From a virus: a stretch of 21,674 bases of DNA. Shown here piece by piece: positions 1,342 to 21,674 of this stretch. Both the position numbers and the translations under genes were made by a program. Numbering within the stretch: position 1 is the first letter of the stretch; every line of letters starts with the position of its first letter. The notes under the pieces were generated by a model that saw only the letters and a list, made by a program, of their open reading frames with translations, was not told where the DNA came from and ran no database searches. Where the stretch lies: the IMG/VR virus record IMGVR_UViG_3300030118_004102, positions 1 to 21,674 of that record. One strand, 5' to 3'.

Positions 1342-1367
1342 AGTAAGTTCCTCATAGTATCTGATCC

Positions 1368-1411
1368 CCGTTCCATGATCAGATTTCATGCGTCCTAATT
1401 AGGATGAACGG
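1368..1411 (-). promoter_or_regulatory. Three-way-junction RNA candidate upstream of short ORF
   Basis: On the minus strand CCGTTC (1411-1406) pairs with GAACGG (1373-1368). Inside are two hairpins: the perfect palindrome TCCTAATTAGGA (1404-1393), and CATGA/TCATG with a 7-nt loop (1390-1374). The layout (GTTCATCC, GGACG, GGAACG) recalls the glutamine riboswitch/Downstream-peptide RNA class of cyanobacteria and cyanophages, which sits before short ORFs. The conserved GAAGUAGG-type segment I remember is not present, so this is a resemblance, not an identification. The 40-aa ORF begins 27 nt downstream. Confidence 0.35.
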
Positions 1412-1420
1412 ACGTTAGGA

Positions 1421-5368: not shown

Positions 5369-6151
5369 TTATTTTTGATTTAATGAACTTGTCGATAAAG
5401 ATGAGCCGCTTCCACTGCCTGAACTATTTAAACTTTTAAATGCGTTCATAAAACCCATCATATTTTGATATGGATTAGCTGCCGCTACTCCACCTGGAGC
5501 CCCGCCACCGTATCCCATATTTGGGTAGGAGTAACGACTACTGCCAAACAAACCATCAATCCCACTTAAAGCAGTCATAAATTTTAAAAACTGGTCAAAG
5601 CTATTGTCTGATGTAGTTGACGGATTATTTGTATTAGCAGTGTTTGATGTATCGACAGTGGCTGATGTGTCAACAGTATCTGCTGTATTAGCTGCTGCGT
5701 CTTCTAATGTTTTTATCTTACTGTTGGCATCGGTTAATTTATTTTCATACCAGTTGTCAGTACCTTTCCATGTATCTTTCATGGCTCCAGTTTCATCAAA
5801 CATATCTGAGTACGATGGAACCGTACCAGCTCTTACACCATCACCTCTAGCTATAGAATCCCTTGCGGCTTGTCTATTCTGTTGAGCTAAAGTAGCAGAT
5901 CTTCCTTTGAACGCACTTGGTAAAGCGTCTAACACTGATTCCGCAGGGTTTCCCTTACCTGCATCTTGAAATTCTTTTACTTTTAAAGCTCTATCTTTGT
6001 ATTCATCACTACCCATTAAAGTTTTTTTGATTGAGTCAAGTGATGTACGTTGTTGGTTAAGCTGTTTATTCCAATAATCAAAACCGCCTTCATCTATATC
6101 TCTTCCAACAGTAGATTGATATAGTTTATTTAAGGCACTTAAATTAGCCAT
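5369..6151 (-). CDS. DUF4214-domain protein next to portal
   Basis: A 260-aa protein whose first 55 or so residues match DUF4214: LNKLYQSTVGRDIDEGGFDY, then W, and later LMGSDEYKDRA. DUF4214 occurs in bacterial surface and calcium-binding proteins and in several marine phages; its function is unclear. A helical middle follows. A Thr/Asn/Asp-rich linker (about 155-180, repeated TVDTS/NTANT elements) leads to a Gly/Ser-rich C-terminus (SSGSGSGSSLSTSS). The composition suggests an extracellular or virion-exposed protein rather than an enzyme. It overlaps the 68-aa ORF by eight bases and precedes the portal by three, so it belongs to the late structural transcript. Confidence 0.75.
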   Translation of the reverse strand: MANLSALNKLYQSTVGRDIDEGGFDYWNKQLNQQRTSLDSIKKTLMGSDEYKDRALKVKEFQDAGKGNPAESVLDALPSAFKGRSATLAQQNRQAARDSIARGDGVRAGTVPSYSDMFDETGAMKDTWKGTDNWYENKLTDANSKIKTLEDAAANTADTVDTSATVDTSNTANTNNPSTTSDNSFDQFLKFMTALSGIDGLFGSSRYSYPNMGYGGGAPGGVAAANPYQNMMGFMNAFKSLNSSGSGSGSSLSTSSLNQK

Positions 6152-6350
6152 TAGGATCTTCTTTTATACGTGTTTTTATCCACTCCACAACGTCACGCTG
6201 ACCAGCTTTGAACATGATGGTTTCAATTGATTCATTGGGAGAAGGGTTTGTAGGTGGAAAAATAATCTCTAGTTCTGAGATAATTTGTTCTATTGATGGG
6301 CCGATTATTGGCTCAAGAATATTGGGGGAGATTGACATTACTGTGTTCAA
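6144..6350 (-). CDS. Small protein between nrdB and the DUF4214 gene
   Basis: A 68-aa product from ATG 6350 (an alternative ATG four codons later, MSISPNIL, is equally good). It overlaps the nrdB 3' end by 38 nt and the next gene by eight. The sequence is Ile/Pro/Glu-rich (PIIGPSIEQIISELEIIFPP), then a short helix, RDVVEWIKTRIKEDP. Conserved tight overlaps support translation. No domain recognised. Confidence 0.6.
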   Translation of the reverse strand: MNTVMSISPNILEPIIGPSIEQIISELEIIFPPTNPSPNESIETIMFKAGQRDVVEWIKTRIKEDPNG

Positions 6351-7035
6351 AAAATGCTATTGCTCTTGCTCTTTTTGTATCGTTAAGCTCTGGGGCTTTG
6401 CCCTCATACATCAATCGATCTGAGGTATCGGTCCAAAAATTTTTGCTCAAATATTTATCGCCGTAAGTATTTTTACTTAGTGGCTCCATAATCCAGTGGA
6501 TAGTGGCTTTGCGGAGCTTGTCGAGAGATGGACTAGGGTTAAGGTCTAATTCTTTACAAACTAATGTATTACATGATACGTGAACCTGTTCATCACGAGA
6601 GATATCCATCGATATACTCCTTAATCCACCGTCACCATTAAATCTAAAAAATGGCAGTAGAACGAAAAATATCGCTCTTTCTGCCACTAATGCTTTTACT
6701 ATTTCATGGTCTGGATGTGCCATCCATGCATCTCTAATTCTTTTTGCTTCAGCCTCTGCTTTCGGGTCTACACCATGAGCATCCGTAGCAAAACCTAAAG
6801 CTTTATCATGGTTAAATTCATCTCTTACATTCGATTCAAGGAGACGTATGGCAGATGAGGGAACCTCTTTACCAAGTGTCTCAGTAATCCATTCACCCAC
6901 AGGTAGCTCCATGTGCCTAGCTGCGAGACAACGGTAGAGGGCTTCTTCGCTTCCTTCTTTAAGTTTTCCAGCGTCTGGTTTAACTGGGGTCCATTTTCTC
7001 TTTCTATTGAGTAATTTTTCATATGGGTTTTTCAT
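6313..7035 (-). CDS. nrdB: Ribonucleotide reductase class I small (beta) subunit
   Basis: The beta subunit houses the metal cofactor that generates the radical passed to NrdA, for making dNTPs from host ribonucleotides. The product is about 240 aa, much shorter than bacterial NrdB (about 350-375 aa). Metal-ligand motifs are visible: ExxH in VRDEFNHDKAL (about 70-80), a carboxylate in LVAERAIFF (about 120-127), and a second ExxH in ISRDEQVHVSCN (about 150-160). The first ligand is probably in the EEALYRCLAARHME helix. The start chosen is ATG 7035, which overlaps the nrdA stop as ATGA; an ATG three codons earlier (7044) is also possible. Compact alpha and beta subunits of this type are known from P-SSP7-like phages. 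Confidence 0.88.
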   Translation of the reverse strand: MKNPYEKLLNRKRKWTPVKPDAGKLKEGSEEALYRCLAARHMELPVGEWITETLGKEVPSSAIRLLESNVRDEFNHDKALGFATDAHGVDPKAEAEAKRIRDAWMAHPDHEIVKALVAERAIFFVLLPFFRFNGDGGLRSISMDISRDEQVHVSCNTLVCKELDLNPSPSLDKLRKATIHWIMEPLSKNTYGDKYLSKNFWTDTSDRLMYEGKAPELNDTKRARAIAFFEHSNVNLPQYS

Positions 7036-8435
7036 TCTTGACATTCACAAGCTATTGGGTCACTGTCTGGTTTGTCAGACAATATGCCCTGCAAATATTC
7101 ATCGACGTCTAGATCCCCTAATGCTGCGTGTACATCGGTCTTGTCTTGTGTCGTACTCATTACTTGCAACGCATAGTACATACTGGTTTGCGGAGACCGA
7201 AGCCACTCATTTATAAATTCTTCGTCGTATGTGACCATATCTGACCACGTATTAAACGAATATCCATGATGAAGTCCTGTGGATATTAAGAGGTTCATAA
7301 AATTATCGGCTACTTTTTTATAAGCATCCCATCCTACCTCTTCAGCTATTTCAACTGGGCCATAATCGTAACTCTGAACACCGTGAATAGAACTATCTCT
7401 ATCCACATATCTGCTGATAGGTGGTGCTATTTCAGGTGTTGATGTATAGCCTTCTTTTGTTTTACTTCTATAACTACAGCTAGCGGTAGGAGCTATGCAA
7501 AAAGCTCTTTCCATGCCGTAGTACTTAGCGACCTCAGCCGCTTCTTTAATTCCTTCATATAATTCGCCTGCAATAATCCCACCAACACCTTTTCTGATGT
7601 TGTTGTGTAGAACATCATGTAATGCGTCTCCAAATTCTGCATAAGAAACACTGTGTTGTCCAAGTAAATTAGCTAGTCCAAGGAATCCAAATCCGACTTG
7701 GCGATCCGTGGCTGGCATTTCATATTGGCCTGACCGTCCAACACCAGTTTTAGAATGAAGTTCGCACAAGTCTCGCATACCCTCACGGATAGATCCACGT
7801 ATTTCCCCGATTTCGCACGCTCCCATGTTGCAATGCTGCAACAGGCATGTGCATCGACTGCGTAAAAAGATTTCCAGGCAGACGTTATTTCTGATCCTTT
7901 CTCCATTTTTGTCATATCTTATTTTGGCAAGCCAAATGTCTCCAGCTTTAATGCCTTCGATGATGGCGGTTTTAGTTTCTCCACTTGCTGCGTCCCAACT
8001 TTCTTGATCAAGGTTGACGCACCTTTTGACCCAAGGGAGTTCAGATCTAGGAGTTTGCACGAACTCAAGAATATCGTCACAAAAGATATCAAGGCAAAGC
8101 GTAATCGCACCATTGGGATATTTTCCCCCTCTTCTAAGTACTTCATTTAATACAGAATAGATTTTTCCAAATGAGACGGGGCCAGATGCGGTAAGCCCTT
8201 TGCCGTTCTCATGTCCTCTTGGACGCAAATTAGATAGGTGTACTGCGACGCCTGCTCCATGGCGAAGGCCATATGATGTAAAGATCCAAGAGTTTTGAAT
8301 TGAGTCTCCACTTTCTTCAATGCTATCGTCTACGGTTATTTGTGTACAACTGACGGGTAGGCGTTGTTCAGGATCATCAATCCAATTCTGAACCCTGCCA
8401 GTTCTGGCTATGGTGTGTGCGTATTTTTGATTCAT
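7032..8435 (-). CDS. nrdA: Ribonucleotide reductase large (alpha) subunit, cyanophage type
   Basis: Reduces ribonucleotides to deoxyribonucleotides. At 467 aa it is far shorter than typical class I NrdA (about 750 aa) and lacks an N-terminal ATP-cone. Catalytic residues can be placed: the first redox cysteine in LPVSCTQ (about residue 30); the active-site N-x-C-x-E in NNVCLEIF (about 182-189); the partner cysteine in LLQHCNMGACE; and the shuttle pair CEC at the extreme C-terminus. The glycine-rich LRPRGHENGKG loop and SCSYRSKTKEGYTSTPE fit the substrate pocket. This type was once annotated as class II (B12) in P-SSP7 and later reassigned to class I because a beta subunit follows, as it does here. 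The start directly follows the MazG-like gene stop. Confidence 0.95.
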   Translation of the reverse strand: MNQKYAHTIARTGRVQNWIDDPEQRLPVSCTQITVDDSIEESGDSIQNSWIFTSYGLRHGAGVAVHLSNLRPRGHENGKGLTASGPVSFGKIYSVLNEVLRRGGKYPNGAITLCLDIFCDDILEFVQTPRSELPWVKRCVNLDQESWDAASGETKTAIIEGIKAGDIWLAKIRYDKNGERIRNNVCLEIFLRSRCTCLLQHCNMGACEIGEIRGSIREGMRDLCELHSKTGVGRSGQYEMPATDRQVGFGFLGLANLLGQHSVSYAEFGDALHDVLHNNIRKGVGGIIAGELYEGIKEAAEVAKYYGMERAFCIAPTASCSYRSKTKEGYTSTPEIAPPISRYVDRDSSIHGVQSYDYGPVEIAEEVGWDAYKKVADNFMNLLISTGLHHGYSFNTWSDMVTYDEEFINEWLRSPQTSMYYALQVMSTTQDKTDVHAALGDLDVDEYLQGILSDKPDSDPIACECQE

Positions 8436-8807
8436 TTATACTAAATCGTCTAAGTGTGGTGGTTTATAGTTTTTACCTTTTAATACTTTTCCATCCTCTC
8501 TATATTTAGGATGACCATTTTCGAGTTTAGACATATTGCTTTCATGTACTCGTCGGTATGATTCATCTAAGTCCCAACCCATATTTGCAGCGTATTGATA
8601 ACAAACATATACGAGGTCAGATAACTCTTTTAAAGCTTCTTCATGTAGTGCAAGGCTTTCACGAAATAACATGCCTTCCGCTTCTAAGAATTCTTTAAAT
8701 TCTTCAACGATCAAATTCCTCTGTAAGGTACGGGCCTTCAACGTCTTTGTGTTTTTCACTGCGAACGCATTCCTGAACTCGTTTGCTTGTTCTAAATTCG
8801 ACTTCAT
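8436..8807 (-). CDS. MazG-like / HisE-like nucleotide pyrophosphohydrolase
   Basis: A 123-aa protein of the all-alpha NTP-pyrophosphatase fold. The metal-binding helices are visible: RNLIVEEFKEFLEAEG (E-E-x2-E type) around residues 30-45, and ALKELSDLVYVCYQYA (E-x2-D) around 58-73. The conserved C-terminal tail with SNMSKL, DG-like and GKVLKGKNYKPPHL follows. Family members hydrolyse NTPs, dNTPs or (p)ppGpp-like substrates to monophosphates, which in phage may shift the nucleotide pool. It stands between the DUF3310 gene and nrdA. The annotated start overlaps the DUF3310 gene by 104 nt, unusually long, so the true start could lie slightly downstream, though no good later ATG preserves the fold. 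Confidence 0.85.
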   Translation of the reverse strand: MKSNLEQANEFRNAFAVKNTKTLKARTLQRNLIVEEFKEFLEAEGMLFRESLALHEEALKELSDLVYVCYQYAANMGWDLDESYRRVHESNMSKLENGHPKYREDGKVLKGKNYKPPHLDDLV

Positions 8808-8994
8808 TTTTTAGGTAGTGGATTGCTTTTTCTAAATCGTCAATATCGTCATATTTGTGATCAGCACGGCAAACGTATTTAATAACATTACCGAGATGAA
8901 AGTTAAGTCCTTGGTCTCTTATAAAGTCCCAGACTTGGATGCTCCCCCTTTTGTAGTACGTAGGGCCACTAAGATTTGAGGTGGTTTGGGCCAT
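8704..8994 (-). CDS. DUF3310 family protein (possible nucleotide kinase)
   Basis: A 96-aa protein with the DUF3310 signature: PTYYKRGSIQVWDFIRDQGL, then HLGNVIKYVCRADHK, then DDLEKAIHYLKNEV. The family is widespread in phages, and I recall a link to the T7 gp1.7 nucleotide kinase. The catalytic role here is inferred only. The conserved domain ends near residue 70; the last 26 residues are basic and encoded in the overlap with the MazG-like gene. Together with MazG and nrdAB it forms a nucleotide-metabolism block. Confidence 0.82.
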   Translation of the reverse strand: MAQTTSNLSGPTYYKRGSIQVWDFIRDQGLNFHLGNVIKYVCRADHKYDDIDDLEKAIHYLKNEVEFRTSKRVQECVRSEKHKDVEGPYLTEEFDR

Positions 8995-9137
8995 TTGTCG
9001 ATTAAATTAGTAATTGAGTTTGAAAGTACAAAATTTTGCTCTTGTAATGCCATAAATACGGTGCAAATATCTTCTCTACTTGTTGCTGGGTTTTCTATTG
9101 CGTCCTTAATCTGCCTCAACTTCAAGTCTTGCTCCAT
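8919..9137 (-). CDS. Small protein overlapping exonuclease and DUF3310 genes
   Basis: Start placed at ATG 9137 (MEQDLKLRQIKDAIENP), giving 72 aa. An earlier in-frame ATG at 9197 would add a proline/lysine-rich extension lying wholly inside the exonuclease gene. The product is helical (REDICTVFMALQEQNFVL, then SITNLIDKW) with a basic tail. It overlaps the exonuclease by 32 nt and the DUF3310 gene by 76 nt. I recognise no family. Confidence 0.6.
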   Translation of the reverse strand: MEQDLKLRQIKDAIENPATSREDICTVFMALQEQNFVLSNSITNLIDKWPKPPQILVALRTTKGGASKSGTL

Positions 9138-9870
9138 CGTCAAAGCTGTAATTGGGGGCGGGGGTCCATAAGATGGGTTCTTTTTTTTGGAAGTCATAAT
9201 CGTCTTTTGTAAGAATTTTTGCTAGTCGAGCGTTCATCAAAGCTACATCTTCAGATAGTCCTTTTTCTGCGTATGCATCAACTACTGTTTTCCATGTATA
9301 ACCCTTTTCCTCAAACAACTTAATAGCTTTTTTTATGCCAATACCAGGAATTCCGCTATAGCCATCGGTTGCGTCTCCGCTAGTGAGCTGTATTGCATGC
9401 CATCTACGAGCGAATTGTGGTGTGATGACTGTGACATCTTCAAAGTTATATAAATTCCCAGGTATTTGTTTCATATCTTTATCAGGTGAAACAATTATAT
9501 TTCCTGGGTTTTGCGTACTATACAAACCAATAGCATCATCAGCTTCAAGTTTAGGTATTCGTACTACATCAAATTCCTCAGCTAATTTATTTATAACTCT
9601 TCGATATCCGCATGGTTTCTTTTTTTGTCGGTTGCCTTTGTAGCTGCTTTCTATATCTTTTCTAAAATTTTGACTATCACTGAAAAATAAAATTAAGTTA
9701 CCAAATGCACCAAATTTTAAGGCAATTTTTTCTAGCTCTCTTCTTACCATTCCATAGGCTTCAGAAAATCTAGAAGTAACAACTATAATGTCGTCGCCAA
9801 AATCAATCTCGCTTTCACATCCAGCACAACATTTATATACGACAAAATCGCAGTCTACAAGAATCTTCAT
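9106..9870 (-). CDS. 5'-3' exonuclease, T7 gp6-like
   Basis: Degrades DNA 5' to 3' and removes RNA primers. In T7 it also breaks down host DNA and aids recombination and concatemer processing. The start used is ATG 9870 (MKILVDCDFVVYKC), which overlaps the upstream gene's stop as ATGA. Features seen: the N-terminal metal-binding Asp in LVDCDF, DSQNFRKDIESSYKGNR, the PKLEADDAIGLY acid cluster, VSPDKDMKQIPG (phosphatase-like DxD), and the helix-hairpin-helix GYSGIPGIGIKKAIKLF (about 200-216). These are the ordered FEN/5'-3' exonuclease motifs. Length about 254 aa compares with roughly 300 for T7 gp6. Confidence 0.95.
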   Translation of the reverse strand: MKILVDCDFVVYKCCAGCESEIDFGDDIIVVTSRFSEAYGMVRRELEKIALKFGAFGNLILFFSDSQNFRKDIESSYKGNRQKKKPCGYRRVINKLAEEFDVVRIPKLEADDAIGLYSTQNPGNIIVSPDKDMKQIPGNLYNFEDVTVITPQFARRWHAIQLTSGDATDGYSGIPGIGIKKAIKLFEEKGYTWKTVVDAYAEKGLSEDVALMNARLAKILTKDDYDFQKKEPILWTPAPNYSFDDGARLEVEAD

Positions 9871-10190
9871 TTCCAGAAACCCTCCCAACCTTTAGGCTCT
9901 TGTCCTTTTATCCATCGAATTTCTCTTGTGATTGGGTGAATGTAAACGTGTGCAGATCCACGCTTTTTAGCTCCCGTTGTTTTCCAATATCCATCTTGCT
10001 CTCTCATTTGCTTAACATCGCATTTGATAATCTTGCCTTCCCACTCCAGTACTAAATCTGTAGCACCAGTTCTATATATGTTTTTGAATACTTCCGCACC
10101 TTTTTCAGATGCCTTTAATGCGACTTGGTATTCCCAATAGTCTCCTAACCTTGCGTCGTCATCAATGAACGTCGGCCCAAGTGGACCCAC
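9867..10190 (-). CDS. PD-(D/E)XK-like nuclease-fold protein
   Basis: The frame can start from GTG 10190 or ATT 10166; the longer ATG start (10277) lies deep inside the polymerase gene and is unlikely. The domain begins RLGDYWEYQVALKASEKGAE. A catalytic-looking pattern follows: TGATDLVLEWEGKIIKCDVK, with Asp, about ten residues, then D-V-K, as in PD-(D/E)XK nucleases. An upstream Glu lies in WEYQVA. The tail contains basic and aromatic residues (KGQEPKGWEGFWK). It lies between DNA polymerase and exonuclease, so a repair or recombination nuclease role is plausible but not shown. Confidence 0.65.
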   Translation of the reverse strand: MGPLGPTFIDDDARLGDYWEYQVALKASEKGAEVFKNIYRTGATDLVLEWEGKIIKCDVKQMREQDGYWKTTGAKKRGSAHVYIHPITREIRWIKGQEPKGWEGFWK

Positions 10191-11433
10191 TCTTTGCGTC
10201 GGCTTCGATTTTAACTCGCAACTTATAGTATTCTCCAGCTCTAAGGGCTGAGTTTTCAAGGGTGAACTTAAGGTCATTTATATCGTTTTGTTTGCACTCG
10301 TATTGAATTTCGTCGTGGATAAAAGCTAATTGGTGAGCACAAATACCAAGAGCTTTTATTGTGTTATATGTAATTAAAAGCCACCGTTTTGCCAAGCAAG
10401 CACAGGAACCTTGAATAATAAAGTTTAATGCTTTGTGGGGGCTTTCTACTTGAAGTGTTCGACCATCAATAGTTTTGATCGAACCTCCAGATGCCCGCTT
10501 CGATACAGCCTGTAATAGCTCATCCAATCCAGGGGTTGCTTTGACAAATGCTTCTCTAATTTCTTTTCCTTTTTTTGATGCATTATCCTCACTTAGTAAT
10601 GGGTCATAGCTCCAACCTATTCTTTTATTCGATCCTCCATACATCCAACAGTACGTGATTGTTTTTATTTGTTTACGTGACACGCCGATTGCATTAGCGT
10701 TGACTTGATGAATGTCTCCTGTAAGTAGAATTTTTGCGTAACGACCTCCATCATAACGAGCCAAGAGATGTGAGAAATAACGCAATTCAACACCACAAAG
10801 GTCAGCCCCGACCATATAATAATTCGGGGATGCACAGAAGAGTTTTCTAAAATTTTCATCGGAATTTACCTGACTAAGGTTGGGTGTACGGTGATGGCAT
10901 CGATGTGTAGCTGTACCAACTGCACAATGATGATGGATACGATTAGATGTCGTAACAAGTTTGTTGTAGGCGTTGACGCCTTCTGATAGACTCCCTAACT
11001 GTTTTTTTAGGGTCAAGCATCGGACAAGTATCATCGCAATATCCGTCCCAATTTCCTTCAACACTTTCTCGTCTATTACAGGTTTCCCGGTCGCTGTTCT
11101 CAGCGTCGGTTCCCATCCGTAATGTGTTTGCATTATCCATGCTATGTGATCTCTACTCGTAATATTGAATTCTTTGAGACGTGTAAACGTACACCCCTCT
11201 ACATATCCTTGTGTTTTATTATTTCTTCTAGGAGTAAAAGTTGATCCGTACACGAAAGGGTGTTTCCTTCGAAGTATCCGATAATTTTCTTCCAGTTCGG
11301 TCCTGATACTTTCCTCAAGTTCCCGTGAAGATTTCGCATCAAAATACCATCCATGTTCCTCCTGTTCTTGTAATATCAGTGCTACCTTGTGCTCCATTTG
11401 GACCCATTCAGGTAGCTTTGGAAGTGATCGCAT
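10162..11433 (-). CDS. DNA polymerase, family A, polymerase-domain part
   Basis: Carries the palm and fingers of a T7 gp5-like polymerase. Motif A is MVGADLCGVELRYFSH. The fingers helix is RKQIKTITYCWMYGG, with the Arg, Lys and Tyr of the O-helix. Motif C is LAFIHDEIQYEC. The C-terminus GSTWADVH ends like T7 gp5 (WAICH). The region that would hold the T7 thioredoxin-binding loop is much shorter here (about 30 residues between RRKHPF and NITSRDHI). The frame starts at ATG 11433 with a TAA two codons upstream, and overlaps the exonuclease-domain ORF by 52 nt. As read, the polymerase is two polypeptides. A -1 shift within 11382-11439 would fuse them; translation from the internal ATG or a missing base are the alternatives. 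Confidence 0.95.
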   Translation of the reverse strand: MRSLPKLPEWVQMEHKVALILQEQEEHGWYFDAKSSRELEESIRTELEENYRILRRKHPFVYGSTFTPRRNNKTQGYVEGCTFTRLKEFNITSRDHIAWIMQTHYGWEPTLRTATGKPVIDEKVLKEIGTDIAMILVRCLTLKKQLGSLSEGVNAYNKLVTTSNRIHHHCAVGTATHRCHHRTPNLSQVNSDENFRKLFCASPNYYMVGADLCGVELRYFSHLLARYDGGRYAKILLTGDIHQVNANAIGVSRKQIKTITYCWMYGGSNKRIGWSYDPLLSEDNASKKGKEIREAFVKATPGLDELLQAVSKRASGGSIKTIDGRTLQVESPHKALNFIIQGSCACLAKRWLLITYNTIKALGICAHQLAFIHDEIQYECKQNDINDLKFTLENSALRAGEYYKLRVKIEADAKSGSTWADVH

Positions 11434-11927
11434 AATTTAGTTGTGACTCTTACATCTTGTTCGCAATAGGTTTCCATCTCTTGTGACCACTCAGACCAAT
11501 CTGTAGTTTCACCAAACTCTCCTTTATACTCTCCTAATCTGTAGCCGTATGCTTTTAAACTGTGGCGTCCGTATTGACTAAGTGGCATGTTAGGCCATTT
11601 ATGATTTTGGTCAATTTCTAATAAATTAGGATGGTATAAACGTGATAATAGCAATGTGTCTACTATTTCAGCCCTAGTAGAGAAGAATGGGTAAAGCTTT
11701 CGTATAGCTGGTAAATCAAAATGGATACCGTTATGGGCGATAATAGTATCAGCAACAGAGAGTTTAGATAATCCCTCAGTAATTGAATACTTGTTATTTT
11801 TCTCGTCATTGAAAGTTTCAATTTCATTTAACTCCGAGTTGTAAATTGCGATGCAATGTATTCTTGATAAATCTTGTAAAAGACCATTGGTTTCAATGTC
11901 GAATACGAGTGTTATCTTTCCAGACAT
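11382..11927 (-). CDS. DNA polymerase, 3'-5' exonuclease-domain part
   Basis: This 181-aa frame carries the proofreading domain of the T7 gp5-like polymerase. Exo I is LVFDIETNGLL (D-x-E), Exo II is IIAHNGIHFDLPAI (N-x3-D), and Exo III is YCEQDVRVTTKL (Y-x3-D). The last 17 residues (from about LNGSKWSTR backwards) read through the start of the polymerase ORF in another frame and do not resemble gp5, so the authentic coding probably ends near CDHFQS. Upstream it overlaps the 47-aa ORF by 35 nt. Whether exonuclease and polymerase function as separate subunits is unknown. Confidence 0.93.
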   Translation of the reverse strand: MSGKITLVFDIETNGLLQDLSRIHCIAIYNSELNEIETFNDEKNNKYSITEGLSKLSVADTIIAHNGIHFDLPAIRKLYPFFSTRAEIVDTLLLSRLYHPNLLEIDQNHKWPNMPLSQYGRHSLKAYGYRLGEYKGEFGETTDWSEWSQEMETYCEQDVRVTTKLCDHFQSYLNGSKWSTR

Positions 11928-12036
11928 ATGTTTTGTCTACAAATTTAGCTTTTTCAATCTGTAGTTTGGTAGGTGGGTTAGGTTTATGTAATTCTGGACT
12001 AAACATTTTCACTAGATCATAAGTAGGATATACCAT
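11893..12036 (-). CDS. Small 47-aa protein between helicase and DNA polymerase
   Basis: Starts at ATG 12036, whose A is the last base of the helicase stop codon (TAATG), and ends inside the start of the polymerase exonuclease frame. The sequence is MVYPTYDLVKMFSPELHKP, then basic (KLQIEKAKFVDK), ending NTRIRH. The stop-start overlap and lack of gap favour translation by reinitiation. No domain recognised; an accessory of the replisome is only a guess from position. Confidence 0.55.
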   Translation of the reverse strand: MVYPTYDLVKMFSPELHKPNPPTKLQIEKAKFVDKTYVWKDNTRIRH

Positions 12037-13169
12037 TAGAAATCTGTTGAGGGGTTAAACTCTGGTTCATTATCTACTTCCTTAAATTTACATGTCTCAT
12101 TATTGTAGCTAAGCATAGAAGCTACACCGACTAAACCACTGTATCTGTTTTTCAATACTCTTAAAGTTGTATTCCCTCCATCGTCTCTTTTTTGACTATC
12201 AGCTTCGAGGGTTATTACTGAATCGCTTATTTGCGAAACGCTGTGAGATCCTCTAAGGGATGCCAAGCTAACGCGACCTCCCTCCTCTGCACTTTTAGAA
12301 TCACTGCCACCTCTTCTTAAATGTGAGACAAGAAAAAGAGTTATTCCCGTTCGTTCAACAAGTGAACGTAAATCGGTCATCACTTGATCAATAAGCCGAC
12401 GTTCATCTTTAACTTCTTTTAAACCAGAAATTAATATCGACAGGTGGTCTAAGAATATAATTTTGCAGTCAAGACCAGTAGCTAAATACTCAATACGGTT
12501 ATAAATTAAATCGCATTGGAAAGAACCAAAACCATCAAAGAGGTAGAGATTCCAATTAGCAATTGTTTTGTTATACGCTTCTTCAAGTTCTTCTTTCTCA
12601 TACTCTTTCAAATGAAATGGTTTGCCTAAAGAGGCAGACATCAAGCCGAGGGCTGTCCGTCTATTTGATTCTTCAAGACCCAGGAAACCAACCCGTTCTC
12701 CTTTATCAAGAAGGTAGCTTGCAAGTTGCCTGACAAATGTTGTTTTGCCTCCCCCTGTGGGGCCAGTAATTGTGAGAAGCTCTGAATGCCTGATCCCTCC
12801 CAACTTTTCGTTAAGTCCATTGAATTCGTATTTATAAAGACAAGGTTGATTTGGAGTAGTGACTAAATCAAATAAATTTTTTCCATCAACAATTCCATCA
12901 GGTCGGTAAGTTTCAGCGTCCCAGATTGCTTTTCTTATGGCTTGCGTGTTGTTTGCCTGTAGTGCATCACTGGCATCCTTGTAATTATCAAGCCGAGCGA
13001 TCTTTACCTTTCCAGGTGGAAGGATGCTGCAAACTTCCTCAGTTGCTTTTCTCCCTGCGTCGTCATTGTCGAAAAATAAGATGACTTCCTCATATCCCTG
13101 CGTCGTCATTGTCGAAAAATAAGATGACTTCCTCATATCCCTGCAAAAAAGGTATCTGTTTTTTAACAT
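12036..13169 (-). pseudogene. Primase-helicase, helicase part (frameshifted)
   Basis: The DnaB-like/T7 gp4 helicase that unwinds the fork on the lagging strand. Genuine sequence begins at QGYEEVILFFDNDDAGRK, the end of the TOPRIM fold; the first 23 residues from ATG 13169 are an out-of-frame reading of the upstream segment. Walker A is TGPTGGGKTTF (about 135-145), Walker B is IIFLDHLS, and LFLVSHLRRG (H4-like), GSHSVSQISDSVI and a C-terminal RNRYSG-like LKNRYSGLVG follow. An exact 43-bp tandem duplication causes the shift; deleting one copy would restore a single frame of about 525 aa. The C-terminus is acidic (DNEPEFNPSTDF), as in gp4. A helicase-only product from an internal start could survive. 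Confidence 0.9.
13052..13144. repeat. 43-bp tandem duplication inside primase-helicase
   Basis: Two exact copies of a 43-bp unit lie head to tail (13052-13094 and 13095-13137), followed by a 7-base partial third copy (TCCCTGC, 13138-13144). In the gene the unit encodes the TOPRIM acidic motif GYEEVILFFDNDDAG, so the peptide appears at the end of one frame and the start of the next. Since 43 is not a multiple of three, the frame is lost. Confidence 0.97.
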
Positions 13170-13656
13170 CCTTCTTTGCTGAGGCTGCCCCGTGAGGCAG
13201 CGAGCATATGGGCCAAGAGCCGAAAGCAGCTCTTATACTGGCTGCATCTAATTCGCCTTCAGATAAAATAAATCTTTTACCTGTAGATGGAAATTTATGT
13301 TGACCGAAAAACGTGTCTGTTGGTTCTCCTTCGTAAAAGAAATCCTTCGACTTAGTTTTTACTTTAAAGCCTTTTAATATTCCATCTATAGTATAATAAG
13401 GAAACCTTAAAGTTTCACCATCTCTATAAATTTTATAGAATTCGTTTGTTTCTTCATCTATATTTCGTTTAGATAATCTTTGAGCAGAACCTTTAAATGA
13501 AACACTAGAAGTCATTTTATGCTTGTGATAATTATCGTCAGTAGTTGTAATGTTTTGACAAACAAAACAGTAGGTATGACCGTCGCTATATAAACTATTG
13601 CCATCACTTGATCCGCATTGAGAACAGGCAAGATGCCTGATAAACTCACTTTCCAT
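13090..13656 (-). pseudogene. Primase-helicase, zinc-finger and primase part (frameshifted)
   Basis: N-terminal part of a T7 gp4-like primase-helicase, which makes RNA primers on single-stranded DNA. The start used is ATG 13656, overlapping the endonuclease stop as TAATG (an in-frame ATG four codons earlier also exists). A zinc-binding module is visible: CSQCGSSDGN, then YCFVC, with two CxxC pairs at about residues 11-14 and 30-33. The primase/TOPRIM fold follows, with FILSEGELDAASIRAAFG (catalytic Glu) and VILFFDNDDAG (D-x-D). Only one residue and a stop follow DDAG, because of the 43-bp duplication. Everything up to that point looks intact and conserved, so the break is recent or technical. 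Confidence 0.9.
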
Positions 13657-14006
13657 TACGTTAGCCAACTAATAGGAATATCAGTAAATTGACAATGTTT
13701 TATATTATGTTTGTCGCACCACATGGCATAAGTTGTTTTTGATTTTTTGCTGATACGATTGTTTTCGTTTTGAAATACCATGCGGATATCAACCTGTGGA
13801 TTTTGCTCAATTATGTTTTTAGTTTTGCGGCGATCTGCTGCTGACCAATAACCCTTTGTTTCTAAAAAAATACCGTTTGCTAAATGAAAATCTGGTAGGT
13901 AGAAATGTTGTATTTGATATGGGATTCTGTGATCTTCATATTCATACTTAACGCCCAGATTACATAACAAATCTGATACTCTTTCTTCTAATCTTGACCT
14001 GAACAT
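13656..14006 (-). CDS. Endonuclease I / Holliday junction resolvase, T7 gp3-like
   Basis: A 116-aa structure-specific endonuclease that cuts branched DNA. In T7 it resolves recombination intermediates and helps degrade host DNA. The catalytic signature is visible: YLPDFHLANGIFLETKGYW, with Asp, Glu and Lys corresponding to D55, E65 and K67 of T7 endonuclease I, and an upstream Glu in SRLEERVSDLL. The C-terminus KKSKTTYAMWCDKHNI matches family members. TAATG overlaps link it to ssb before and primase-helicase after, giving the T7 order ssb, endonuclease, primase-helicase. Length is close to T7 gp3 (149 aa) but shorter at the N-terminus. Confidence 0.95.
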   Translation of the reverse strand: MFRSRLEERVSDLLCNLGVKYEYEDHRIPYQIQHFYLPDFHLANGIFLETKGYWSAADRRKTKNIIEQNPQVDIRMVFQNENNRISKKSKTTYAMWCDKHNIKHCQFTDIPISWLT

Positions 14007-14590
14007 TAGAAGTCATCGTCAATAGAAGAAGGCGAACCAGTTCCAACTAATTCAACATTTGGATCTTGTGATTTATACCCTTGACATTTACCAAATAATT
14101 CGGCAACTTCCGTTTCATCTAAATCACCAGAATCAATACCAGCTTTTGATTCAATGCTTACTACTTGTATCCCAGCAATTTTTAATGACGTGCCAAATGT
14201 CTGACCATCTTTTAAAACGTAGGGTCTTTGTGTAAATCCTATTTTTACCTTTGATCCTTCGTATAAAGGTGTGGCTTTATCTCGAATAATTACTCCCTCT
14301 GAGTCTACAATAGGCGGTTCATTGCCTTCTTTCCAACTAAACTTAATTGCATATTTACCTGGACGGTTTGGCTCTTCCTCCCATGGCTCAGGTTTTGCTA
14401 CTGATCTCTTTGGTGATGCGACTTTTGAAAGGCACCACTTAACACAGTCTTCGCGTTCTTCTTCTAGACGATCAATAATATCTTGATCTACTATTGCTCT
14501 TAATGTATAACCAAACTTGCCAGGTTTCATGACAGCTTGAAAGCCTTCTAATGTAACTGGTGATGGTGTTGTGTGTATTGTTCTAGACAT
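14006..14590 (-). CDS. Single-stranded DNA-binding protein, T7 gp2.5-like
   Basis: A 194-aa protein that coats single-stranded DNA and organises the replisome through its tail. Evidence: the OB-fold-like N-terminal region (PGKFGYTLRAIVDQDII), a middle segment YAIKFSWKEGNEPPI, SKVKIGFTQRPYVL, and LKIAGIQVVSI. An acidic C-terminus ends SSIDDDF with a terminal Phe, the gp2.5 hallmark that contacts polymerase and primase-helicase. It begins 24 nt after the RNA polymerase gene and overlaps endonuclease I as TAATG. Confidence 0.92.
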   Translation of the reverse strand: MSRTIHTTPSPVTLEGFQAVMKPGKFGYTLRAIVDQDIIDRLEEEREDCVKWCLSKVASPKRSVAKPEPWEEEPNRPGKYAIKFSWKEGNEPPIVDSEGVIIRDKATPLYEGSKVKIGFTQRPYVLKDGQTFGTSLKIAGIQVVSIESKAGIDSGDLDETEVAELFGKCQGYKSQDPNVELVGTGSPSSIDDDF

Positions 14591-14614
14591 TTAATTGGGT
14601 GAATAAATTAGTAA

Positions 14615-16972
14615 TTAACAAAAAAAGTATTTAGATTTAATAACATCTTTTACGTTAAAATCTCCTATAATTGGTGGCGGTGTTTCTGCGTTTATTTGTT
14701 TAGCAAAATCGTTTAATACATCATTAGATGTAAAAATCTCTGCGTAAGTTTCCCTTACGTTTTTAGCTAGTTGTTCCATATCTGTTGCTCTACAGAGAAC
14801 AGAATCATGTATCAAAGCTATTGGTTTATCTCCCCATCTTTTTATCAATAAATGTAAAAGAGAGGAGTCTAGGCTGTGGATAAAATTAGGACAAGTTGCG
14901 TTCTTATGGTGTGCAACATCGACTTGATTTGTATCTCCTGTTGCGACTCTTAGCTGACAACGGCCTAACAGTTGTAGGTCCATTGTTACAAATTTCTTTT
15001 TCATCAACCGTTGCGTCACAACAAAACCAGATGGAGTAGTCCATCGCAGCTCTGTTGCTCCGCGTTTAAATGCTTTACCAACTTCAAGATCAATCCATTT
15101 TAAAACTTGCAAAGGTCCAGGCAAAACCTCATTCATTGCTTTGGTCATTGCCTTTGTACATTGCGATAATTCCTCTTTAGAAATCTCAATGCCTTTTTCT
15201 TTAAAGGCTTGTTTGATGTAGGCTTTTCGGCTCCACTCTTTTGCTGCATAGCAGATTGTCATGACAGCTCTTTTGACAATTTTTCTATCCCAGTTAGGTT
15301 TTAATCTTTCTGGTATGTCATCACGAGCTGCATCTGCTACGGCTTTATACGCATCCTGTGGTTTATCGCTTGGAATAACATTGACCATCTTGGCGGCTAA
15401 ATGGTCTTTGCTAATCGTGGATAAAATTTGTATTCCAGAACAGGTGGCATCAATACCACAAGGTATGGATGTTGTTTTTCTATCTTTTTTTATACAGCAT
15501 CTGTAGTATTCCTCTGCCAAAGCAAGGAAACACCATGGTTCTTCGGCTGCCTCCCACATCGTTAAATTACGAATTGGATCTGTGGCAACGTCTGTGATGT
15601 AACCCTCGTGACTATCAACCCAATCGATGCGTTCTTCCATCGTTGATTTGTCTAGTCCATACGCTGTAGCAAGAGATATTTTTAGCCATTTCTCACCATT
15701 ACTGTCCAAGTGCACAGGTTGGCTAAACTTTAAAAGGCTCTTGCCAAAGTCGCTGTCCTGAGGATGCAGCAGGGATGGAATGCTGTACGCACGTCCTCTG
15801 TAATCTAGATTCCAACACAGAAAAAACTCTGGGTAAACCTGTCCATTTGCGTAACTAAACCGCTTAATCATCTCTAAAATCTGCCGAGTTCGGCATGATC
15901 TACGGAAGACGTGGTTTTGTTCGTTTAGTGCTTTTGCTGTATCAATGCAATATCTTTTCTTAGCTATTTCATTGGTCGCAATATCGTAAGGTTTGTTGGG
16001 TAGAACCACTTCATAAGCGGGAACAAACTTACCAACAACACGCCCAAGCTTTTCTAATTCTTGGGCTGTTTCGCAAGTAAACGAGTTAAGGACAAATCCT
16101 GTCTTTTGAATTGTGTTTACAAAGTCATAAACAGTCTTTCCCTGTATAGGTAAGGGTGTCCCGTTTCTGACAAATTTATGTGATCTTTTGACTTCATTTA
16201 GCAAATAACCTCCATCATCTGTGGGCGTCCAATCGTTAGGTTTTACGAGCATTGGAAAGGCTAAAGGTGCATATAATTCTGCCTCTTTCATTACCTTGTC
16301 TTTTATGTCTAAAAACTCTGGAGTTGGTAACAAATTCAAATGAGTTCGTTTACCAACACGCACTGAGTTTTTCATAAACCAGCCGGAACATTGAGTGACG
16401 GTATCTAATAACCAAACACCCAATTTAATTTGAGTTTTTGTACCCCAAGATTGCCAAGGTTGAACCTTGCAGCGATTCATCATGGTACGAATTACAACAA
16501 ATTTTTGGTGGGTTCCAATTGCGTTGTGCCAATACTTTTCTTTTAAGGATTTCATTAAACCAGGAGCACATTTTTGATAATGAATCATTTGTGCTTCTTG
16601 CTCGATAGCCTGACCTATGGCCTGGCAAATCCCTGTAATTCGATTGCTGTTTTGTTTGTAACTAAAAACGCGATCAAAGATAATTTTGCAAGCGATAGTT
16701 CCAGCCGCAATAGGTTCAACATCATTGAGATATTTGCGTATCTCTTTGAAACTGACTCCGTTGTAGCCTCTCTTAGCTCTTGCAGATGTTCTTTCTAAAT
16801 GTTCAACAACGAGGGGCAAAAGTGTATCGATGCTTGTGACTCCGACAACAGAAGCGGAATAATATTCCTTTTCTTTTAATTTCCTGTCGTTGTTTTTTAA
16901 GTTAGTTTTACCAAGCTTAATTGCAGCTTTCTCAAGATTAATTTCTGCCTCAACTAATTGCGGTGATGCCAT
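14615..16972 (-). CDS. Single-subunit DNA-directed RNA polymerase, T7-like
   Basis: Transcribes the middle and late phage genes from phage-specific promoters. The start chosen is ATG 16972 (MASPQLVEAEINLEKAAIK), giving 785 aa. An in-frame ATG 16 codons earlier (17020) adds a segment unlike the family. Motif A is IPCGIDATCSGIQILSTI (catalytic Asp). Motif B is RKIVKRAVMTICYAAKEW, with the Lys and Tyr that select NTPs. Motif C is ALIHDSVLC (second Asp). NLDYRGRAYSIPSLLHPQ corresponds to T7 DMDWRGRVY. The C-terminus ends KYFFC where T7 ends FAFA, so the terminal foot differs by a cysteine. The protein is about 100 aa shorter than T7 RNAP, mainly at the N-terminus. It follows integrase and the attachment site and precedes ssb. 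Confidence 0.96.
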   Translation of the reverse strand: MASPQLVEAEINLEKAAIKLGKTNLKNNDRKLKEKEYYSASVVGVTSIDTLLPLVVEHLERTSARAKRGYNGVSFKEIRKYLNDVEPIAAGTIACKIIFDRVFSYKQNSNRITGICQAIGQAIEQEAQMIHYQKCAPGLMKSLKEKYWHNAIGTHQKFVVIRTMMNRCKVQPWQSWGTKTQIKLGVWLLDTVTQCSGWFMKNSVRVGKRTHLNLLPTPEFLDIKDKVMKEAELYAPLAFPMLVKPNDWTPTDDGGYLLNEVKRSHKFVRNGTPLPIQGKTVYDFVNTIQKTGFVLNSFTCETAQELEKLGRVVGKFVPAYEVVLPNKPYDIATNEIAKKRYCIDTAKALNEQNHVFRRSCRTRQILEMIKRFSYANGQVYPEFFLCWNLDYRGRAYSIPSLLHPQDSDFGKSLLKFSQPVHLDSNGEKWLKISLATAYGLDKSTMEERIDWVDSHEGYITDVATDPIRNLTMWEAAEEPWCFLALAEEYYRCCIKKDRKTTSIPCGIDATCSGIQILSTISKDHLAAKMVNVIPSDKPQDAYKAVADAARDDIPERLKPNWDRKIVKRAVMTICYAAKEWSRKAYIKQAFKEKGIEISKEELSQCTKAMTKAMNEVLPGPLQVLKWIDLEVGKAFKRGATELRWTTPSGFVVTQRLMKKKFVTMDLQLLGRCQLRVATGDTNQVDVAHHKNATCPNFIHSLDSSLLHLLIKRWGDKPIALIHDSVLCRATDMEQLAKNVRETYAEIFTSNDVLNDFAKQINAETPPPIIGDFNVKDVIKSKYFFC

Positions 16973-17077: not shown

Positions 17078-17080
17078 ATG

Positions 17081-17130
17081 GAAGCACAAGAACCTAAAAC
17101 CAACGCGTCTACCAATTCCGCCAGGTGGGC
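17081..17130 (-). other. attP: Putative attP: 5' half of a tRNA-Leu(UAG) gene
   Basis: On the minus strand about 39-42 nt read as the beginning of a cyanobacterial tRNA-Leu. They include the acceptor strand GCCCACC (17130-17124), the D-arm GGCGGAATTGGTAGACGC, and the anticodon loop TTTAGGT with anticodon TAG. Beyond the loop the sequence no longer pairs with the 5' anticodon stem, so homology stops there and no complete tRNA is made. It lies about 100 bp downstream of the integrase stop. P-SSP7 is known to carry a 42-bp match to its host's leucine tRNA in the same place. The inference is a site-specific integration core. Confidence 0.85.
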
Positions 17131-17231
17131 CAATGGATCTCGAAGAATCCAGAGAGCTATACGGTTGAGGGAGCCTAGCAAAAACCTAGTGTTTTCGTAG
17201 GCTTTCCCAACCAATGGATACGCTGCATTGA

Positions 17232-18104
17232 TCATATTCGATCAATCGCGTCTTGCAAACTCTTATCTGAAGTATCAGCATACCTCAGCGTTGTATTGAT
17301 GTTTGCGTGTCCCATCATCTTTTGTATCTTTCTCATCGAGATATCACCCTCGACGCCAAAGTGTCCAAAAGAATGTCTTAAACAGTGGAAGCAATATCCC
17401 TCATCAAAGTTTAAATATCTTTGAATAATATTTTTAAATGATCTGGTAAGAGAGTGTCTTGATTTCCAATCGTCTTTAAATAAATAATCATTTGGTCCTT
17501 TGTTTTCTATTCTTTCAGCGATCAAATCTTTAATCCTTCTATGAATAGGAACACTACGATATTTACCAGGCTTTGTTGTGTTGTCTGGTCTATCGCCTAG
17601 ATGAAATTGATTGAAAGCTAAATCAACATCTTTAACTTTTAGTTTTAACAATTCACCTTGCCTCATGCCTGAATATGCAGCAGCTAATGTGATATCACCT
17701 AGCGGCTTATTACCATATTCTTGATATGCAATTTTGGCTATCAGTTCTACCTGTTCTTTTGTGTAAAACTTTCGCTTTGGTTCAAATTTATTTTTCCTAC
17801 GTTTAAAACGTGGAACTTGGAAATCAATTACTTCCATGTCATAAGCAAACTTTAATACAGTTGAAACTGCAGAAGTTTTCTTATTAATAGTGTCATCACA
17901 AATACCTGTATCTTCTAGCATTAACTGCCAATCGATCATTAGTTTTTTTGTGATGTTTTTTGCAGGGAATGAATAACCAAAGTCTTTAACGAAATGTCCA
18001 CTGTTAATCATTGCAGCCTTACGACCGCCGCCTGATCTCCAAGTGTCTAATTTATTTAAAGCTAAGTCTCTTAATTCCCCAAAAGTAGCATTGGGATTAC
18101 TCAT
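17232..18104 (-). CDS. int: Tyrosine recombinase / phage integrase
   Basis: Would integrate the phage into, or excise it from, the host chromosome, here probably at a tRNA-Leu gene. The 290-aa protein has a SAM-like N-terminal core-binding domain (about 1-110). The catalytic domain contains all key residues: Arg in AAYSGMRQGELLKLK, a Lys in the beta-turn before the HxxR, H-x-x-R in HCLRHSFGHFG, His in KMMGHANINTT, and the nucleophile Tyr in LRYADTSDK. Nothing appears missing, so it is probably active. It overlaps the MarR-like gene by eight bases and they form an operon. Integrases of this kind are common in podoviruses of Prochlorococcus although lysogens are hardly ever seen. Confidence 0.95.
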   Translation of the reverse strand: MSNPNATFGELRDLALNKLDTWRSGGGRKAAMINSGHFVKDFGYSFPAKNITKKLMIDWQLMLEDTGICDDTINKKTSAVSTVLKFAYDMEVIDFQVPRFKRRKNKFEPKRKFYTKEQVELIAKIAYQEYGNKPLGDITLAAAYSGMRQGELLKLKVKDVDLAFNQFHLGDRPDNTTKPGKYRSVPIHRRIKDLIAERIENKGPNDYLFKDDWKSRHSLTRSFKNIIQRYLNFDEGYCFHCLRHSFGHFGVEGDISMRKIQKMMGHANINTTLRYADTSDKSLQDAIDRI

Positions 18105-21260: not shown

Positions 21261-21674
21261 TCAAGCTTCTGGTGCTATAAGGTCGGCTGCTTTCTTTGCA
21301 TCACGCAAAACTTTAAAAAGTATTTTGTGATCCTCTTTCAAAACAGAAATCCAGTTATCTAGATATGCTGCGTGGTTCTGCATATCGGACCCAATTTTTA
21401 AGCGATAAGCAACTATTACCGCACCAAACTCGGCACGTAGTTCTTCGATCGCGTAGTCTTTGGAACCGAAAGCGTTGCCTAGCTTTCTATCTAGTCTCGA
21501 TTTATGCCCGGTTGAGTGAATCTGTTCATGAGCCAGTGTGGCTAGATAAGCCTCGATGCTTGTGAACGATTCTTTATCGGGCATCCGTATTTTGTCCTCA
21601 AGTGATGAGTAGCATGCTCTAGTTCCACCATGTAAAACTTTTACTTCCCAACTGTTCAAGATCTTTTCTGCTTT
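21261..21674 (-). CDS. ArdC-like antirestriction zinc metalloprotease, C-terminal part
   Basis: The frame is open to the right window edge, so the N-terminal single-stranded-DNA-binding domain of the usual 300-aa protein is out of view. Visible here is the zincin domain: HGGTRACYSSLEDKIRMPD, SIEAYLATLAHEQIHSTGH (HExxH zinc site), SRLDRKLGNAFGSKDYAIEE, then LRAEFGAVIVAYRLKI. The terminal motif is NHAAYLDNWISVLKEDHKIL followed by DAKKAADLI. These match ArdC of conjugative plasmids, which protects incoming DNA from type I and II restriction. As the first gene seen in the early region it would act at DNA entry. Confidence 0.85.
   Translation of the reverse strand, partial: KAEKILNSWEVKVLHGGTRACYSSLEDKIRMPDKESFTSIEAYLATLAHEQIHSTGHKSRLDRKLGNAFGSKDYAIEELRAEFGAVIVAYRLKIGSDMQNHAAYLDNWISVLKEDHKILFKVLRDAKKAADLIAPEA

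Follow-up and report, generated by a model that had tools for sequence, protein, structure and literature searches.

An exact 43-bp tandem duplication within the TOPRIM region of gp4 in a cyanopodovirus contig

Introduction

The primase-helicase gene gp4 is essential in T7, and it is therefore a question how a T7-like phage contig can carry a gp4 that ends in one reading frame and starts again in another. The sequence analyzed here, called the window, is the whole 21,674-bp IMG/VR record IMGVR_UViG_3300030118_004102. It is an assembled ocean-phage sequence and represents a fragment of a P-SSP7-like, T7-like cyanopodovirus. It contains psbA and the genes for the portal, class II RNR, polymerase, gp4, endonuclease I, RNA polymerase and integrase, in the same order as in P-SSP7. 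The break in gp4 coincides with a perfect tandem duplication, which could have arisen in the phage, could be a device for the production of two proteins, or could be an error.

Results and Discussion

The duplication and its effect on gp4

Tandem Repeats Finder located the duplication at 13052-13144, with a period of 43, 2.2 copies (2.16), 100% matches and 0 indels, and an exact pattern search revealed that the 43-bp unit occurs twice within the record. The first-pass annotation had described two abutting identical units followed by a 7-base partial third, and this was borne out by both analyses. The sequence at the junction of the two units is CTTCCTCATATCCCTGCGTCGTC. A perfect tandem copy of 43 bp is far beyond chance. 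The features of the locus are as follows, where L003 is the nearest relative in IMG/VR:

13052..13094, plus strand: first 43-bp unit in window order, the second copy met in the mRNA (Tandem Repeats Finder, exact pattern)
13095..13137, plus strand: second 43-bp unit in window order, the first copy met in the mRNA (Tandem Repeats Finder, exact pattern)
13138..13144, plus strand: TCCCTGC, 7-bp direct repeat (GCAGGGA in the mRNA), found on both sides of the single copy in L003
13090..13668, minus strand: gp4 N-terminal ORF, 192 aa from TTG, with the zinc ribbon and the TOPRIM up to DNDDAG, then TGA at 13092-13090 (ORF list, Pfam, L003 comparison)
12036..13169, minus strand: gp4 C-terminal ORF, 377 aa, with the second copy of the DxD strand, the remaining TOPRIM and the DnaB-like helicase (ORF list, Pfam)

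The duplication is situated within gp4, which is encoded on the minus strand, and the frame shift occurs directly after the TOPRIM DxD motif. The additional 43 bp are 1 mod 3, and thus the frame is shifted past the DxD strand and a TGA is brought in frame. The N-terminal ORF, which starts with the TTG at 13668 or the ATG at 13656 (minus strand), has the C-terminus ...GYEEVILFFDNDDAGI before the stop. It passes through the Cys-rich zinc ribbon and the TOPRIM as far as GYEEVILFFDNDDAG before the TGA, and a second copy of this peptide is present in the C-terminal ORF, in the other frame and together with the helicase. The early claim that the peptide ends in one frame and restarts in the next therefore holds for two minus-strand ORFs that each carry it.

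The Pfam search yielded only Zn_Ribbon_Prim for the N-terminal ORF, just below the cut-off of that model, and Toprim_2 was not found in it. In the C-terminal ORF, DnaB_C was complete, and Toprim_2 was represented by its second half (model positions 42-88). The N-terminal ORF was 99.5% identical to residues 1-191 of L003 gp4. The zinc-binding primase motif, the TOPRIM and the DnaB-like helicase of a T7-type gp4 are all present at the locus, but they are distributed over two ORFs in two frames instead of forming a single protein. In an alignment with T7 gp4, the break lies after the equivalents of E157, D161, D207 and D209, and the equivalent of D237 is on the other piece. Because the break separates the equivalents of D207/D209 from that of D237, the TOPRIM is cut in two.

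The C-terminal ORF has two possible restart ATGs, at 13136-13134 and at 13109-13107, and the latter is 17 nt upstream of the TGA stop. No Shine-Dalgarno sequence at a sensible spacing was found for the restart ATGs, no terminator favouring two transcripts was found inside gp4, and promoter-like matches were not clearly above those in shuffled sequences. If the duplication is real, some helicase could be made via a restart ATG, and no primase would be expected from the broken gene.

Relatives and the ancestral state

A comparison with related genomes had been proposed together with the first description of the locus, and it revealed that the nearest relatives carry the 43-bp unit once and have a whole gp4. 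L003 (IMGVR_UViG_3300030098_004281; 98.2% identity over 10.8 kb) contains a single unit with TCCCTGC on each side, at 10829-10878. Its gp4 is intact, with a length of 529 aa when counted from the TTG and of 525 aa when counted from the ATG (codon 5), in agreement with the about 525 aa that had been predicted for a gene with one unit. The gp4 of L005 (90% at the protein level) is likewise continuous, and in both relatives the zinc-binding primase motif, the TOPRIM and the DnaB-like helicase are united in one protein. Because L003 has one TCCCTGC-flanked unit and an intact gp4, and the gp4 of L005 is also continuous, the intact single-copy gene is, judged by these sequences, ancestral, and the window duplication is derived, one repeat-to-repeat length (43) having been added once.

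An exact pattern search of IMG/VR with the 50-bp string of unit plus repeat matched only L003, with one match, and did not detect any other copy of the duplication. The junction was absent from every other fetched locus, and a scan of genome contigs for the duplication returned distant gp4 only. gp4 was in one frame in 80/80 polymerase-selected contigs, 58 of them with a near full-length gene, and in all 20 RNR-selected contigs that contained gp4, i.e., the break was conserved in none of the 100 contigs chosen by other genes. The duplication represents no trait of the lineage, and no common fault of this contig collection either.

L003 gp4 could be aligned with T7 gp4 (PDB 6n7i) over residues 6-515 (E 1.7e-85), and the value against P-SSP7 gp4 was 63%, so that the window locus is homologous to both. 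In the gp4 proteins of T7 and P-SSP7 the zinc ribbon, the TOPRIM and the DnaB-like helicase are arranged in the same sequence, and the gene has the same neighbours, namely RNA polymerase, SSB and endonuclease I before it, and polymerase and exonuclease after it. In contrast to both, the window ORF is broken inside the TOPRIM by the duplicated 43 bp.

The junction and how it could have been formed

The TCCCTGC at both ends had initially been taken as support for microhomology slippage, and the geometry is backed by the relative, in which the single copy has the direct repeat at both ends, as is typical for a microhomology-mediated tandem duplication. A homology of at least 7 bp at a random junction has a probability of p ~0.001, whether the lag is 43 or lies within 20-100, and is thus longer than expected by chance. 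For this reason, the junction was likely formed when a 3' end re-paired at the other TCCCTGC. In this scheme, the 3' end would have been extended across the second TCCCTGC and would then have re-paired at the first, whereupon the 43-bp stretch between the repeats would be copied again. The copying step is inferred; the exact duplication, the single-copy relative with its repeats, the frame effect and the uniqueness were observed.

The re-pairing may occur in the phage, in the amplification reaction, or, via a spurious short overlap, during assembly. Template switching by the T7 replisome has been described in vitro (PMC9484634). MDA chimeras are primed at complementary stretches that are short (2-21 nt), and close chimeras in direct orientation are rare, 11/475 (PMC1855051), which counts against the technical reading considered below. 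The window duplication does not differ structurally from microhomology-bounded tandem duplications generated by replication slippage or template switching, which have the same single-copy ancestor, a short repeat at each end and a duplicate of one repeat-to-repeat length; an origin in the phage and an origin in the tube are the two alternatives. Potential sites are plentiful, as 137 direct repeats of at least 7 bp with a spacing of 20-100 bp were found in 14.7 kb. Hairpin-driven slippage was not supported, since local folding was no better than that of shuffled sequences (z ~0) and no strong hairpin was found at the site.

Rarity and age of the duplication

Perfect tandem duplications with a period of at least 12 were searched for in 363 IMG/VR contigs (3.26 Mb), including the window. 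Fifty were found, and the period was divisible by three in 49 of them. The window duplication was the only exception, and it was also the longest; the next-longest unit in these related contigs had 33 bp and was in frame. Given this base rate, an exact duplication that is out of frame in related viral contigs is a useful indication of an error or a dead allele. In-frame perfect minisatellites with units of 12-33 bp were frequent in the portal-selected contigs (e.g., L175, L180, L182, L184, L226 and L238), and their periods were always multiples of three.

The two 43-bp units are identical, with zero divergence. The gp4 regions of the window and L003 differ by 23 substitutions, which are spread over both sides of the break, and 20 of these are synonymous. 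Within 6166-16957 the frame is broken only by the 43-bp insertion when the window is compared with L003, and the one other indel comprises 3 bp. The remaining genes common to the two contigs are open, including a hypervariable gene at 5369-6151, which aligns only partly and yet is open. Because of the identical units, the synonymous pattern and the open state of the other genes, the duplication appears, on this comparison, to be either very recent or never to have existed in nature, and no sign of decay is apparent in the window.

Origin of the duplication

We consider it probable, by a modest measure, that the duplication is a technical error, introduced between sampling and contig by amplification, library construction or assembly. 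This origin is favoured because an allele that destroys gp4, a gene essential in T7, would not be expected to prevail as the consensus in a natural phage population. The duplication is present in the sequence but is without function, and it is not a functional feature. A frame break of an essential gene in a single metagenomic phage contig calls for caution, and a comparison with relatives and with the reads is needed before a biological reading.

One part of this technical reading is a pure assembler fault, which taken by itself is rather doubtful. Two graph segments with an overlap of k = 43 could have been joined untrimmed, or the 7-bp TCCCTGC could have served as the overlap in place of the true 50-bp one, which would yield exactly unit, unit and TCCCTGC. 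The unit length equals one of the MEGAHIT k-mers used at JGI (23, 43, 63, 83, 103 and 123; PMC6081815, PMC6243002, PMC12796325), which would be suggestive if this list was applied to the window record. However, an untrimmed k-mer overlap would not account for the microhomology and would make the 7-bp repeat a coincidence expected once in 1000 cases, which also speaks against the technical reading, and the 7-bp join needs both contig ends to lie exactly at the repeats. Furthermore, among the other contigs of the 363, none had a tandem unit as long as one of the JGI k-mers, and therefore the fault is not a systematic one of the assembler.

The second possibility, to which we give clearly less weight than to a technical error, is real slippage or strand switching between the TCCCTGC repeats in the phage. 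It would have generated a very recent loss-of-function allele of gp4, in a genome that is defective or complemented in mixed infection, and reversion by loss of one of the two 50-bp overlapping copies would be likely. The slippage geometry, with the single copy of L003 between 7-bp direct repeats, the plentiful candidate sites and the purifying pattern on either side of the break, which fits a very young event, are in accord with such an allele. On the other hand, an allele that inactivates a gene essential in T7 should be rare, while contigs report the majority, the duplication is found in no relative, no comparable frame-breaking tandem duplication is present in the 3.26 Mb, and the site lacks a strong hairpin that would promote slippage.

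The first-pass annotation had considered an artefact, recent slippage and a device that gives separate primase and helicase products. The first two readings are kept, but the device is unsupported, because no relative has a split gene (100/100 contigs have a one-frame gp4) and because the TOPRIM is cut in two. According to this very improbable reading, gp4 would be split into a primase-side and a helicase-side product, the latter made by termination-reinitiation at the ATG 17 nt upstream of the TGA. The restart ATGs predicted just upstream of the stop, the full DnaB_C domain of the helicase half and the fact that the polymerase of this lineage is already encoded by two ORFs would be in line with it. 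T7 also yields two forms, gp4A and gp4B, from one gene, but it does so with an internal start in an unbroken ORF, whereas the frame of the window gene is broken within the TOPRIM, and the short form gp4B retains the whole TOPRIM domain, so that the likeness is at most one by analogy. In a split gene the break would be expected between domains, with each piece complete. Here it lies after DNDDAG, inside the TOPRIM and not between primase and helicase, and thus no working primase results. The lack of a Shine-Dalgarno sequence at a sensible spacing also argues against a device, and exact, undiverged copies have no history of selection. Least probable of all is that gp4 is switched reversibly between an intact and a split state through gain and loss of a unit at TCCCTGC, with the duplication common in the phage population; a real and frequent duplication would represent a rare example of a phage that tolerates the loss of its replicative primase or switches it.

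gp4 frameshifts in sequenced isolates

Frameshifts in gp4 are also present in GenBank records of isolates, namely P-SSP7 GU071093, P-SSP2, P-SSP3, NATL1A-7, NATL2A-133, P-SSP10, P-SSP6, P-GSP1, S-RIP2 and S-CBP4 KC310804. The frameshifted records (L007, L008, L010, L011, L013, L015, L017, L018, L021, L244 and L245) have differing single-base indels, mostly around codons 63-107, and the gp4 CDS is missing from the annotation of most of the isolate records. In several records the break is a one-base change within a homopolymer run. A-runs cluster within codons 63-104, and those of P-SSP7 gp4 are at codons 63, 69, 73 and 104. Homopolymers are not involved in P-SSP7 GU071093, which has an extra A, or in NATL2A-133, which has lost a T. 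Two phages were sequenced twice, and gp4 is intact in P-SSP7 AY939843 and S-CBP4 HM559717, but broken in GU071093 and KC310804; homopolymer indels distinguish the two full P-SSP7 records at other sites too. GU071093 is a 454 assembly, from a study in which 88% of the indels were in homopolymers (PMC2816706). Because the resequenced P-SSP7 and S-CBP4 are intact, the isolate frameshifts are likely pyrosequencing (454 homopolymer) errors. A habit of cyanopodoviruses to split gp4, as support for a device, was thus rejected on the basis of the twice-sequenced phages, the 454 data and the homopolymer breaks.

The split DNA polymerase

Downstream of gp4, the DNA polymerase is encoded by two ORFs:

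11382..11927, minus strand: DNA polymerase 3'-5' exonuclease ORF, intact, normal lineage split (181/181 identical in L003; same annotation in P-SSP7)
10162..11433, minus strand: DNA polymerase ORF, intact (99.3% identical to L003 over 423 aa)

Within 10162-11927 the two ORFs overlap in different frames, as do the ORFs of the split cyanopodovirus DNA polymerase (P-SSP7_017A/017B), which likewise represent one ancestral protein. Whereas the gp4 break is unique to the window record, L003, L005, L006 and the isolates that were examined all have the polymerase split. The idea of a second lesion in the window polymerase was rejected, as the split is typical of the lineage. The P-SSP7 annotation leaves both a split gene and a programmed event possible.

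Additional features of the window

A Glutamine-II riboswitch (RF01704, 58.5 bits) is present at 1359-1413 (minus strand), between psbA and the downstream capsid-like gene. A zincin-like metallopeptidase (MPTase-PolyVal, E 1.3e-41) is encoded at 21261-21674 (minus strand) and is cut by the end of the window; it is similar to the peptidase portion of antirestriction proteins of the ArdC type. A stretch at about 17080-17140 (minus strand) resembles the 5' part of a tRNA-Leu gene and lies directly downstream of the integrase (17232-18104). ARAGORN did not call a whole tRNA there. The stretch likely represents an attachment site, in line with what has been proposed for P-SSP7. Lastly, the hypervariable gene at 5369-6151 (minus strand) encodes a DUF4214 protein and corresponds to 3123-3926 of L003. 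It is probably the result of a module swap, because the two versions are almost unalignable except for the C-terminus, while the neighbours are 99% identical.
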